A stretch of 64,000 nucleotides of DNA, taken from the NCBI RefSeq assembly GCF_000820505.1, contig NZ_JWJD01000005.1:116015-180014 (forward strand), given 5' to 3'. The first letter of the stretch is position 1; each line of letters starts with the position of its first letter. Under the pieces are notes generated by a model. That model had not been told where the DNA came from. It was given only the letters and a program-made list of their open reading frames with translations, and did not search any database. Positions 22,574 through 38,582 of the stretch are shown piece by piece. This stretch comes from Geoalkalibacter ferrihydriticus DSM 17813. GTDB lineage: Bacteria; Desulfobacterota; Desulfuromonadia; Desulfuromonadales; Geoalkalibacteraceae. A program made the translations under genes and the position numbers.

Positions 22574-22589
22574 TGGCACACCCCCTGCT
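22574..22589 (+). promoter_or_regulatory. Sigma-54 (-24/-12) promoter of nifH
   Basis: TGGCACACCCCCTGCT has GG at 22575 and GC at 22587, the exact -24/-12 spacing. The leader to the nifH start is about 295 nt and contains two attenuators. No TGT-N10-ACA site of classical NifA is visible in the 135 bp upstream, so another activator is likely. Confidence 0.85.
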
Positions 22590-22607
22590 AATAGAGAAGA
22601 CGTAAGC

Positions 22608-22684
22608 AGGCACGAAGACGTGCCTCACGCATTTCAGTCAGGCAATGGCGCCCGCTGGGATCATCGCGATCCCGCGGGCTTTTT
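22608..22684 (+). promoter_or_regulatory. nifH leader, first ANTAR-type attenuator
   Basis: Hairpin 1 is AGGCAC-GAAGAC-GTGCCT (22608-22625; G at loop position 4 but G, not A, at position 1). Hairpin 2 is GGC-AATGGC-GCC (22641-22652) with A1 and G4 in the hexaloop. Its 3' arm is also the start of a terminator: GCCCGC, bulged T, GGGATC pair with GATCCC and GCGGGC, then five T (22650-22684). Binding of an ANTAR protein to the two hairpins would keep the terminator from forming. Confidence 0.75.
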
Positions 22685-22710
22685 GTTTGTTCACAGCTCA
22701 GGTATTCATT

Positions 22711-22786
22711 TTGCGGCGCCACGGCGGAGCCGCAACAGGCAAAGAGGCCTCATCCGAATTTTTTCGGGTGGGGCTTTCTATTTTTT
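22711..22786 (+). promoter_or_regulatory. nifH leader, second ANTAR-type attenuator
   Basis: A hairpin TTGCGGC/GCCGCAA (22711-22735) is followed by AGGC-AAAGAG-GCCT (22737-22750), hexaloop A1 and G4. The 3' arm overlaps a second terminator: GCCTCATCCGA (22747-22757) pairs along its full length, with G-U pairs, to TCGGGTGGGGC (22764-22774), then a T-rich tract. Two terminators in series would give tight shut-off. Confidence 0.65.
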
Positions 22787-22883
22787 GCGACGTCTGGTCG
22801 CTGCTTCCCGCGAATTCAATGGCGATGCCGCCTGGGAAGAGTCGTCCCCGCGCCGCACATCCACCGTAAACAGGAGAATCATC

Positions 22884-23762
22884 ATGAGAGAGAAAAAGCT
22901 GCGTCAGATCGCAATCTACGGCAAAGGCGGCATCGGCAAATCCACCACCACCCAGAACACCGTCGCGGGTCTGGCCGCCCTCGGTCAAAAAGTTTTGATC
23001 ATCGGCTGCGACCCCAAGGCCGACTCGACCCGCCTGATCCTGCACGCAAAGGCGCAGGCCACGGTTATGGACAAGGTGCGTGAACTGGGAACCGTTGAGG
23101 ATCTGGAGCTTGACGATGTGCTCAAAGTCGGCTACGGCGGCGTCAAGTGCGTCGAATCCGGCGGTCCCGAGCCGGGCGTCGGTTGCGCCGGCCGCGGCGT
23201 CATCACCGCCATCAACTTCTGTGAGGAAGAAGGCGCCTACACCGACGATCTCGATTACGTTTTCTACGACGTTCTCGGCGACGTGGTGTGCGGCGGCTTC
23301 GCCATGCCCATCCGTGAAAACAAGGCGGAAGAGATTTATATCGTTGTTTCCGGCGAGATGATGGCCATGTACGCCGCCAACAATATCTGCAAAGGCATCG
23401 TCAAATACGCCTCTTCGGGCAGCGTGCGCCTCGCCGGCCTGATCTGCAACAGCCGCAACACCGACCGCGAGGCCGATCTTATCGAGGCCCTGGCCGAGCG
23501 TCTCGGCACCCAGATGATTCACTTCGTGCCCCGCGACAACCAGGTGCAGCGCGCCGAACTGCGGCGCATGACGGTTATCGAATATTCTCCCGAACATCAG
23601 CAGGCCGAAGAGTATCGCCAGCTGGCACAGAAGATTGCAGAAAACAAGAAACTGGTAATTCCCACGCCGCTGGAGATTGAAGAACTCGAAGATCTGCTCA
23701 TGGAGTTCGGCATCATGGAAGCCGAAGACGAAACCATCGTCGGCAAGGCTGAAAACGCCTGA
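22884..23762 (+). CDS. nifH: Nitrogenase iron protein (dinitrogenase reductase) NifH
   Basis: ATP-dependent electron donor to the MoFe protein. The 292-residue protein has the P-loop GKGGIGKST, cluster ligands C101 (VGCAGRG) and C136 ([13 protein letters not shown]), and R104, the Arg that DraT modifies. The start is fixed by an AGGAG site nine bases upstream; the frame is open farther up only by chance through the terminators of the leader. A 49-bp repeat separates it from nifD. Expression should need sigma-54 and read-through of two attenuators; activity should be set by the draTG products. Confidence 0.98.
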
Positions 23763-23771
23763 CGCGGCTTT

Positions 23772-23820
23772 GTAGGGGCGACGCATGCGTCGCCCAGGGC
23801 AAGGCATGCCTTGCCCCTAC
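23772..23820 (+). repeat. 49-bp GTAGGGGC double-palindrome repeat between nifH and nifD
   Basis: Second copy of the element upstream of nuoM, same length; the paired differences (GACGCATGCGTC versus GGCGCATGCGCC) keep the palindrome. It ends 38 bp before nifD. Confidence 0.75.
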
Positions 23821-36081: not shown

Positions 36082-36148
36082 CCAGTGGGGCGCGGGGTGT
36101 GCCCCGCGCCCTTGCTTCAAACCTTTGCCTGTTGTTTAGGGAGACGCC

Positions 36149-38317
36149 ATGCGCCTGATCGACAATCTGAAAATTTCGGCCAAACTTTTTGTGTCTTTCG
36201 GCGCAGTTTTGGCGCTTTTCCTGGGTTTCTCGCTGCTGAGCTACCTCAACGCCGAGCGTATCGGCGCCGAGGCGACGGTTCTCAAGGAAGAGCGTTTTAC
36301 CCACGCCATCGCATCTCTGGAACTGGTCAATCGGGCCGACGGCGTGGCTAACTCCCTGGTTGCCGCGGCCGACGCGCAGCGCCAGGATTTGCTCAGACAG
36401 GCCGAGGAGCAGCTGGTGCACTACCAGGAAGCTCTGGCGCAGTTGCGCGAGTTGCACCTATCCCCAGCTCTGAATGGCGCTCTGGCCGCTTTGGACGCGA
36501 GTTTTCTCGCCATGTTCGAGGCGGGCAAAAGCATGGCCCGCTATGCCATCGCCCAGGACTTCATTGGCATGATGGAAGCGCGCCCCGCCTTTGCCGAGGC
36601 CCAGCAAGCCTTTGTCGCGCAGGCCGAGGAGCTCAAGCAGACGGGCTCCGCCGAGTTGCATTCCGGGCTTGAGGGCATCGATGCCCTGGCCGCGCAGACG
36701 GCACGCACCGGCCTGATCGTTTCGCTGTTCGCCCTGGTCTTTGCCGTATTGTTGGCCGTGCTTATCACGCGCAGCATCGCTCGGCCACTCAAAAGCACTC
36801 TGGCGATGCTTCATGAACTGGAGAAAGGGCATCTGGAGCATCGCCTCAAGATGGGCCGCAAGGATGAGATCGGCGACATGGGGCGTGGTCTCGACGCCTT
36901 CGCCGAAAGCCTTGAGACGGAAATCGTCGCCGCCATGGAATCCCTGGCCCAGGGTGATCTGACCTTCACCGCCCAACCGCGCGGGCAATCCGACCGCTTG
37001 CGCAATGCGCTGCAAACCGTGGCGCTTGACCTCAACAGTATTCTGCACGAGATCCGCAACGGTGCCGAGCAGATCACCAGCGGTTCCAATCAGGTCTCGT
37101 CCTCCAGCCAGTCGGTGTCTGATATGGCGACGCGTCAGGCCGGTGCCTTGCAGGAAATCGGCAGTTCCATCAACGAACTCGAATCCCAGACGCGGCTCAA
37201 CGCGCAAAATTGCGGGCAGGTCAACCGGCTGGCCGCCGAGGCGCGCGACGCCGCCGCAGCCAGCAATGGGCATGTGGGCAAGATGGTCGGCACCATGAAC
37301 GAGATTGCCGCCGCCGGGCAGAACATCTCCAAAATCATCCGCACTATCGACGAAATCGCTTTTCAAACCAACCTGCTGGCCCTCAACGCCGCGGTCGAGG
37401 CGGCGCGCGCCGGTCAGCACGGCAAGGGTTTTGCCGTGGTCGCCGAAGAGGTGCGCAACCTCGCGGCGCGCAGCGCCAAGGCCGCTCAGGAAACCAGCGA
37501 ACTGATCACCTCGTCCATCGACAAGACGGGCGCGGGAGTCGAAGTCGCCGAACAGACCGCTACGGCTCTTAACGATCTTGCCGAGCGCATCGCCAAGGTC
37601 AGTAACTTGGTGGATGAAGTGACGGTGTCTTCGCGCGAACAAGCCGAGGGCATCAAGCAGATCACTCTCGGCGTGGATCAGGTCGACATCGCCGTGCAGC
37701 AAAACACCGCTAACGCCGAGGAAAGTGCGGCGGCCGCCGAGGAACTTTCGGCCCAGGCCGAGCAGCTCAAGCAGATGATCAGCCGCTTTCGCCTCGACAA
37801 TGCGTCCGCGCCTCGCCCGGCGACGCCCGCCCCTGTCGCGCAACGATCCCTCGGCGCGCCGCAACCTGCGGTGCAATCCAAAAGGCAACCCGCCGCGCAC
37901 GGCGGCGAGCACGTGCTGATGCGCTGGAGCGAGGATCTGAGCGTCGGCATCGAGCATCTCGATCGTCAGCATCAGCAGTTGGTGGCCATGGTCAACGAGA
38001 TGTTCGCCGCCTTGAAAACCGGCCAGGGCGATAAGGTGCTGAGCGACATCCTTGACCGGCTGGTTAATTACACCCAGCGGCATTTCTTCGAGGAAGAACG
38101 CATGATGAAGTCCCACCAGTATCCGGACCAGGAGGCGCATAAGGCGGCTCATGCCCAGTTGGTGGCGCAGGTGGCGGATTTTCAGACAAAATTCAAGGCC
38201 GGCAAGGTCTCCGTGTCCAGCGATTTGTTCAACTTCCTTAAAGGCTGGCTGATCAATCATATCCAGGGTGAGGACAAAAAGTACGGCCCCTATTTCAACG
38301 GGCGCGGCGTTTACTAG
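36149..38317 (+). CDS. Methyl-accepting chemotaxis protein with C-terminal hemerythrin domain
   Basis: Chemoreceptor of 722 residues. Two membrane helices (about 13-32 and 190-212) flank a small periplasmic four-helix region; HAMP and the MCP signalling domain follow (hairpin start [26 protein letters not shown]). After a Pro/Ala linker, residues 588-722 form a bacteriohemerythrin: [31 protein letters not shown] and [13 protein letters not shown] hold the His, Glu and Asp ligands of a di-iron site. This is the arrangement of DcrH-type oxygen receptors, so it probably guides the cell relative to oxygen, fitting an organism with oxygen-sensitive nitrogenase. Confidence 0.92.
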
Positions 38318-38396
38318 CGAGTTTTTATCCGGAGTTTCCGGATGGACGTATTCGCTCCGGATGCGTATCTGCAAGCCGGTTAGAAAAACGGGCAGC

Positions 38397-38421
38397 CCTG
38401 CCTAAAAGAGCGGCAGGTTTT
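38397..38421 (+). terminator. Intrinsic terminator after the hemerythrin chemoreceptor
   Basis: CCTGCC, nine bases, GGCAGG, then TTTT. It separates the receptor from the nifV promoter. The stem is short. Confidence 0.55.
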
Positions 38422-38466
38422 CCGGTCGCACGCACCTTCCCCCTGGATCCAAGGGGCTTTGTTCGT

Positions 38467-38482
38467 TGGCACGAACACTGCA
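38467..38482 (+). promoter_or_regulatory. Sigma-54 (-24/-12) promoter of nifV
   Basis: TGGCACGAACACTGCA: full TGGCACG box and TGCA with exact spacing. The leader to nifV is about 115 nt. Confidence 0.88.
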
Positions 38483-38516
38483 TAAGCTAAGGCATAGGCA
38501 AAATCCGCAATTTTCA

Positions 38517-38582
38517 CCGGCAATGCCGCCGGCAACCAGGCAACGAAGCCCCAGGGACGAGATCTCTGGGGCTTTTCTTTTT
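38517..38582 (+). promoter_or_regulatory. nifV leader ANTAR-type attenuator
   Basis: Hairpin 1 CCGGC-AATGCC-GCCGG (38517-38532) and hairpin 2 GGC-AACGAA-GCC (38539-38550) both have hexaloops with A1 and G4. The 3' arm of hairpin 2 is the start of a terminator: GCCCCAG pairs with CTGGGGC (38548-38572), then TTTTCTTTTT. The 13-nt stretch AGGCAACGAAGCC is identical in the nifB leader. Confidence 0.85.

Follow-up and report, generated by a model that had tools for sequence, protein, structure and literature searches.

The window analysed here, a stretch of 64,000 nt from contig NZ_JWJD01000005.1 of Geoalkalibacter ferrihydriticus DSM 17813, contains the nitrogen fixation genes nifH, nifB and nifV, each preceded by a leader of similar build, and a gene for a response regulator with an ANTAR domain. 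In each leader, a -24/-12 (sigma-54-type) box is followed by a first hairpin (P1), a second hairpin with a six-base loop (P2) and a predicted terminator whose 5' arm begins within P2. The initial annotation of this DNA had described the three leaders as a box, a hairpin and an AGGC-hexaloop-GCC hairpin overlapping a terminator, and this arrangement can be read directly in the sequence. The leaders, their genes and the regulator gene cluster all lie on the plus strand; hairpin loops are written in square brackets.

The nifH leader opens with the box TGGCACACCCCCTGC (22574-22588), one mismatch away from TGGCACN5TTGC, which is followed by P1 with the loop GAAGAC (22608-22625), the P2 hairpin GGC[AATGGC]GCC (22641-22652) and predicted terminator 1, its stem at 22650-22679 followed by TTTTT (to 22684 with the U tract). 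A second unit sits about 100 bases beyond the first and is made up of an upstream hairpin, P1b, with an internal loop and the putative loop ACGGCG (22711-22735), the hexaloop hairpin P2b, AGGC[AAAGAG]GCCT (22737-22750, core 22738-22749), and predicted terminator 2, which overlaps P2b (stem 22747-22774, to 22786 with the U tract). Both units lie more than 90 nt upstream of the start codon of nifH (22884-23762; TIGR01287, 464.7 bits).

The nifB leader consists of the box TGGCACAGCCAATGC (28515-28529), P1 GACAC[AAGGTT]GTGTC (28543-28558), P2 GGC[AACGAA]GCC (28569-28580) and predicted terminator 1, with a stem at 28578-28607 and then TTTATC (to 28613 with the U-rich tail). It continues with a third hexaloop, P3, AGGC[AAGGGC]GCTT (28624-28637, core 28625-28636), which overlaps predicted terminator 2 (28626-28671, -29.7 kcal/mol), where TTTTT follows GCG about 20 nt before the start codon. 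The nifB gene occupies 28691-29560, with a reading frame that is also open from 28679, the stretch used for searches; its product scored 308.9 bits against TIGR01290, under the cut-off of 343.65, covering profile positions 6-280 of 441. For nifV, the box TGGCACGAACACTGC (38467-38481) precedes P1 CCGGC[AATGCC]GCCGG (38517-38532), P2 GGC[AACGAA]GCC (38539-38550) and a predicted terminator with a stem at 38548-38572 and then TTTTC, whose U tract (to 38582) ends 14 nt before the start codon of the homocitrate synthase gene (38596-39750; TIGR02660, 538.7 bits). This P1 was read from the sequence and seen in the fold of the piece, and it pairs differently when a longer leader is folded. As the initial annotation had noted, nifB and nifV share a core: AGGCAACGAAGCC occurs twice in the window, once in each of these two leaders.

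Compared with the motif of ANTAR target RNAs, all three leaders have two hairpins with six-base loops. The expectation that these loops carry A at position 1 (A1) and G at position 4 (G4) holds for both loops of nifB and nifV and for P2 of nifH, and breaks down at P1 of nifH, whose loop starts with G (G1) and has G4. The closing pairs (AC/GU, with C:G at the top) are present in nifB P1, as in all 23 nifB leaders aligned below, nifV P1 having GC/GC with C:G retained. The P1-P2 linkers are short, at 10 nt in nifB, 6 nt in nifV and 15-16 nt in nifH, and fall within the 2-25 nt that the available part of PMC8164766 gives as accepted for ANTAR RNAs, with the nifH linker longer than the eut range. 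By sequence prediction, the 3' arm of P2 lies within an intrinsic terminator in every case. Predicted folding energies are -19.6 to -29.7 kcal/mol for the terminators and -3 to -4.4 kcal/mol for the P2 hairpins; with terminators so much more stable, the default should be to stop, and P2 would need help to win. No Rfam family matched the leaders at the gathering score, and the window as a whole yielded three tRNAs only.

The sole ANTAR domain found in the whole genome lies in this window, at the C-terminus of a response regulator of 187 aa that is a predicted antiterminator (6403-6966; Pfam Response_reg 1.2e-24, ANTAR 6.7e-21). Its receiver residues D8, D9, D53 and K102 are invariant in nine aligned sequences, so that the phosphorylatable aspartate is in place. 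Only 12 nt past this gene begins draT, for a predicted dinitrogenase reductase ADP-ribosyltransferase (6979-7779; Pfam DRAT 1e-105, no NCBIfam match), and the end of draT is overlapped by draG, for a predicted ADP-ribosyl-dinitrogen reductase hydrolase (7776-8675; TIGR02662, 443.1 bits, over the cut-off). This gene order and the second terminator units of nifH and nifB had been overlooked in the initial annotation. Among the best 30 loci, draT adjoins the ANTAR orthologue in 22, downstream of it in 21 and in the order draT-draG-ANTAR in L043; it follows the orthologue in 10 of the 16 loci from named Desulfuromonadales, Geobacteraceae or deltaproteobacteria, some of which come from the same genomes. 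As draT and draG stand directly behind the regulator gene, the regulator and the control of nitrogenase activity are probably made together. In two loci, L199 and L209, a kinase gene, glnK-amtB, the ANTAR gene, draT and draG are grouped with nif genes nearby, and the L199 regulator may stand downstream of its own leader, that is, in positive feedback.

Taken alone, the window hardly exceeds chance, and the weight of the evidence comes from relatives. The -24/-12 pattern with up to two mismatches was found 60 times in the window against 86.9 expected, no more than chance would give. A strict scan of both window strands for P2 with an overlapping terminator, which missed nifB because of its bulged terminator, gave 3 hits against 8 in 20 single-strand shuffles. 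Relatives were used because a MAFFT alignment of the four window units alone misaligned P1. The nifB upstream regions numbered 31 (30 loci and the window), among them L072, which has no sequence, and L048, L054, L062 and L070, which have no P2 by a picking rule that required A1 and G4. In the 26 leaders with P2, a P1 chosen by stem alone, ignoring the letters, was present within 20 nt in 24, and position 4 of its loop is G in all 24, position 1 being A in 20, G in 3 and C in 1.

After L055, L058 and L065 were left out for lack of a clear P1, 23 nifB leaders were aligned. Every cell of this alignment is paired, 4 of the 8 pairs have changed on both sides, and the covariation score is 0.352 compared with 0.182 for shuffled alignments, with slid structures also scoring lower. 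The AC/GU closing pairs of P1 are invariant in all 23, and the linker ranges from 6 to 15 nt. The covariation of hairpins in relatives that the initial annotation had put forward as a check is thus present for P1, and P1 also covaries over the 93 sites of a second-round model described below.

The same annotation had suggested building a covariance model and searching related Desulfuromonadia with it. A model built from the 23 nifB leaders was searched at E <= 0.1 in 58 genomes of the order, one of them that of the window, and matched 107 times; 98 of the matches could be assigned to the nearest panel gene downstream. The assigned sites precede nifB (36, six of them by coordinates), nifH (35), a protein of about 100 aa (8), nifV (4), ArsC-like (4), Cache-CheW (3), PII-AmtB (3) and EtfB genes (2, one 1.2 kb off), with single sites before genes for a long Amt protein, ModA and glutamate dehydrogenase. 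Family calls underlie the names nif, ArsC-like and Cache-CheW; PII, AmtB, EtfB, ModA and glutamate dehydrogenase were named by sight. The other nine matches (L119, L123, L135, L137, L140, L142, L143, L145 and L147), all at E >= 0.006, remained unassigned, having no panel gene downstream and no terminator; a box is present at one of them.

A refined second-round model, drawn from 90 sources that included the own-genome sites, gave 93 matches. In the model alignment, loops of six bases are present in 91 of 93 P1 and in all 93 P2, and the window's nifV P1, one of the two exceptions, is misfitted there and six bases long by eye. Position 4 is G in all 91 six-base P1 loops, and position 1 is A in 66, G in 24 and C in 1; among the P2 loops, 92 have A1 and 93 have G4, all these counts coming from a model trained on such loops. 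Of the 93 sites, 77 have a box no more than 120 nt upstream (4.6 in shuffles), an enrichment at the place where a sigma-54-type promoter would lie, and some sites with no box still retain the leader. Terminators overlapping P2 occur at 80 of the 93 sites compared with 7.2 in shuffles.

With the nifB-only model, five leaders in the genome of the window reach E <= 0.0035 and the next match lies at 1.84; the refined model picks out the same five, with the next at 0.998. In addition to nifB, nifH and nifV, these precede an operon that encodes a protein of 83 aa together with a nitrogenase-associated ArsC-like protein (TIGR01616, 157.8 bits) and a gene for a CheW-domain protein of 882 aa (CheW over the cut-off, Cache matches under it). 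By these matches, the leader code extends beyond nif genes. A glnK-amtB leader was located through the PII gene; it has a box, P1 GCGAC[AACGGC]GTTGC, a 21-nt linker and P2 GGC[AAAGGC]GCC, to which inspection by eye adds a terminator, and it scores E 0.0093 when 70 kb are searched. The upstream scan found no -24/-12 box at the four ArsC-like leaders, where TTGACT or TTGACA followed 17-18 nt on by a -10-like hexamer can be seen by eye instead, and the RNA code may therefore work behind two promoter types. A simple pattern search added no sites: of the 12 genome matches to CAGGCAANGNNGCC (none for the reversed-pattern control), four are window copies (two in the nifH leader, one each in those of nifB and nifV), and the remaining eight were rejected because they have no P2-overlapping terminator by eye and fold.

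Several observations accompany these leaders. The gene for the protein of about 100 aa, which has no Pfam or NCBIfam match and was the nearest panel gene for 8 of the 107 matches (L106, L113, L117, L124, L133, L141, L172 and L178), sits shortly after draG in some loci, and is often followed by a gene for a 142-aa protein with no Pfam match. In genome G011, which has an ANTAR protein of a different kind and no NifB match, a site at E 3.7e-5 (L118) precedes a likely glutamate dehydrogenase gene, named by sight; it failed the terminator scan, though a short stem and a T run follow. In G056, a likely modA has its own ANTAR leader (L132), and the window's modA frame instead starts inside the end of nifB. 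Past terminator 2 of nifH, at 22817-22832, lies a conserved GGC[GATGCC]GCC, frequently ACATCAACGGGGATGCCGCC in relatives; GATGCCGC occurs in the final 140 nt of 22 of 35 nifH leaders against 0.1 expected from mononucleotide shuffles, and no terminator was seen at this stretch. A radical SAM protein gene (21059-22438) lies immediately upstream of the nifH leader. The stretch that separates the mod genes from nifV (33093-38317) holds genes for two methyl-accepting chemotaxis proteins, of which the second carries a hemerythrin domain, and for a rhodanese; together with the CheW-domain unit elsewhere, these chemotaxis genes hint that chemosensing is tied to nitrogen fixation.

Across the 58 genomes, the leaders track the ANTAR gene. 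Matches to the regulator (E <= 1e-46), two of them split in two pieces, are present in 49 genomes, and 42 of these 49 have an assigned site. Of the nine genomes with no orthologue, three (G011 among them) have another ANTAR protein and six have no ANTAR domain at all; none of these six has an assigned site, although G007 and G027 have an unassigned match inside a long reading frame. A search for NifB in 41 genomes detected it in 29, with no match in the seven among them that lack the orthologue.

The second terminator units also recur. A second hexaloop with an overlapping terminator is present in 19 of 26 nifB leaders tested (0.0 in shuffles; four further leaders were skipped as too short) and in 30 of 35 nifH leaders (0.15 in shuffles), the rule for nifH P2b being looser, with A or G at position 4. 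In most of the relatives' nifH leaders inspected by eye, the second unit has its own upstream hairpin. On these predictions, two units follow one another in nifH, and in nifB a further hexaloop comes with the second terminator. For P3 of nifB, the competing view that terminator 2 is of the ordinary kind and that its flank, rich in A and G, resembles a hexaloop by chance is a serious contender that falls only a little short of an even chance. It accounts for G4 by stem pairing, as the G run of the loop belongs to the terminator stem, and it fits the weak fold of the P3 stretch by itself (-0.9 kcal/mol) and the absence of a visible P1 partner. Against this, the pattern [AG]GC[R..G..]GC[TC] with an overlapping terminator is the one counted in those 19 nifB leaders, and P3 agrees with the published enterococcal 13-mer in 11 of its 13 positions, the P2 hairpins in 10-11. 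As a missing P1 partner breaks the two-hairpin rule, P3 was not filed as an ANTAR site.

A candidate kinase for the regulator emerged from gene neighbourhood. In the window's own genome, a gene for a GAF-PAS-HisKA-HATPase kinase stands directly before the glnK-amtB leader. Relatives of this kinase, 51-62% identical over about 390 aa, precede PII in L196, L199, L202 and L209, and another precedes a site at the end of L182; these relatives sit within a few kb of the ANTAR gene. In L196, L199 and L202 the model places a site between the kinase gene and PII, and in L209 it gave none there at E <= 0.5. A kinase beside the ANTAR gene in L204 was dropped as a lead, its best own-genome match being 42% identical, and the kinase next to glnK-amtB fits better.

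We consider it highly probable that the nifH, nifB and nifV leaders are default-off attenuators, opened when the genome's one found ANTAR protein holds P1 and P2 and thereby keeps the terminator from folding. The leaders are best read as attenuators under ANTAR control because the loops, closing pairs, linker and P2-terminator overlap match the motif tested with EutV and NasR and an ANTAR protein is encoded in the window; by analogy with EutV, we infer that this protein acts by antitermination. Built on the directly observed sequence parts, overlap, covariation, conservation, single ANTAR gene and draT-draG neighbours, the proposed sequence of events would begin with a shortage of fixed nitrogen, upon which a kinase, the candidate being the GAF-PAS histidine kinase by glnK-amtB, would phosphorylate the ANTAR response regulator. 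A dimer of the regulator would then bind both loops, P1 and P2, and the bound hairpins would exclude the terminator and let RNA polymerase read through. For nifH and nifB, full expression would need two such readings, which should sharpen the switch, and the nitrogenase brake encoded by draT-draG would be made together with the factor that permits nitrogenase synthesis.

Several points weigh against this reading. When the strict scan of the window was repeated with the 15 other letter pairs at loop positions 1 and 4, two of these pairs likewise gave 3 hits, so that A1/G4 beside terminators is not enriched in the window alone. In the nifB alignment, P2 was picked by the A1/G4 rule and P1 as a hairpin, which makes the pairing partly one of construction, and the genomes compared are related. 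The nifH P1 loop has G1, and nifB P3 has no P1 partner by eye: in the leaders inspected, no A1/G4 hexaloop hairpin is conserved in the stretch from terminator 1 to P3. Seven of the 49 orthologue-bearing genomes have no site at the first-search threshold, though for two of them the refined model later gives a site close to the ANTAR gene (loci L182 and L196), and in G005 the orthologue occurs with neither NifB nor a site. The glnK-amtB unit is absent from the matches listed in the whole-genome search with the refined model and is for this reason counted as a sixth leader by position only. The kinase is a candidate assigned from its neighbourhood. Finally, nifEN, on another contig, has a box-like TGGCGAACCTCTTGC by eye and no hexaloop unit, and the earlier proposal that read-through switches the whole cofactor and enzyme pathway is not supported.

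Alternatively, the leader terminators could be passive, only lowering expression or blocking read-in, with nitrogen control residing wholly at the -24/-12 promoter and the hexaloops being relics. Control at the promoter is likely in any case, since boxes precede most sites, but the terminators sit downstream of the box and ahead of the gene, P1 covaries, every stem-chosen P1 has G at loop position 4, the sites track the ANTAR gene across genomes and some boxless sites keep their leader, all of which makes passivity very improbable. Equally improbable is that the ANTAR protein binds the leaders and acts on translation or RNA stability instead of termination, as reported for some actinobacterial ANTAR RNAs: translational control by ANTAR RNAs is described in the available part of PMC8164766 and the nifV U tract and nifB terminator 2 end close to their start codons, but P2 overlaps a U-tailed terminator at most sites and both nifH units lie far upstream of theirs.

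If ANTAR-controlled attenuation is correct, nitrogenase would be controlled at three layers by linked parts, namely promoter, read-through and ADP-ribosylation. The double terminators would offer a simple reason for tight shut-off and predict short transcripts of fixed length under ammonium, with ends expected at the U tracts at 22680, 22775, 28608, 28667 and 38573, and the conserved kinase neighbourhood would open a route to the signal. A broader joint reading, which we regard as tentative and rather doubtful, is that an ANTAR RNA code runs the nitrogen economy of the whole bacterial order, gating nitrogenase, the synthesis of cofactor and of homocitrate, the sensing and uptake of ammonium through glnK-amtB, and a coupling protein for chemosensing, with the regulator in one operon with the DraT/DraG brake, nifH and nifB guarded by two serial terminators each, and the second terminator of nifB read via its lone third hexaloop. 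That lone hexaloop would test whether ANTAR proteins truly need two adjacent hairpins.

Related systems have been described. In Geobacter sulfurreducens, GnfR is reportedly an ANTAR response regulator that acts by antitermination at some nif genes with terminators after their promoters (Ueki and Lovley, 2010). Pelobacter carbinolicus is a relative of the organism studied here. The regulator of the window resembles GnfR in combining a receiver with an ANTAR domain; the draT-draG neighbours and the kinase beside glnK-amtB come from the present analysis. In the available part of PMC7962754, gnfR (GSU2822) and the kinase gene gnfK (GSU0941) have distant locus numbers and are thus unlinked.

In the EutV model, terminator formation is excluded once the activated protein has hold of P1 and P2, and the AC/GU closing pairs of P1 are needed (PMC3369931). 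The leaders described here share with the eut leaders of Enterococcus faecalis the A1/G4 hexaloops of P1 and P2, these closing pairs and the P2-terminator overlap (PMC3369931). They differ in allowing G1 in P1, in having -24/-12-type boxes and in their linkers: 5-12 nt works in eut and 14 nt failed (PMC3369931), whereas here the aligned nifB leaders have linkers of 6-15 nt and glnK-amtB has one of 21 nt. The nasF leader of Klebsiella oxytoca, read by NasR, likewise has a pair of hexaloop hairpins, each with A1/G4 and closed by C:G, and works by antitermination; NasR senses nitrate by a NIT domain, whereas the regulator here has a receiver domain (as far as given in the available part of PMC7496416).

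The core claim of the initial annotation, ANTAR attenuation of nif leaders, thus stands as the best reading, given the motif match and the one ANTAR protein in the window, but is of a kind already published: the available part of PMC3369931 reports three nitrogenase transcription units of P. carbinolicus with predicted two-hairpin ANTAR substrates, and also at least 13 attenuators in six units of Desulfotomaculum acetoxidans, so that several attenuators per unit are known. No paper with both ANTAR and DraT as whole words was found in the literature searched, to which few subscription papers and none of the supplementary tables of PMC3369931 belong. Within the reach of these searches, the serial attenuators, the ANTAR-draT-draG order, the candidate kinase, the wider target set and the nifB hexaloop with no P1, which would be a form of ANTAR site not described in the literature accessible, are new. 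Compared with the part of PMC3369931 available on P. carbinolicus, the likeness lies in three nitrogenase units with ANTAR substrates in one genome, and G. ferrihydriticus adds the second units in nifH and nifB, the ArsC-like, CheW-domain and glnK-amtB units, and ANTAR-draT-draG.

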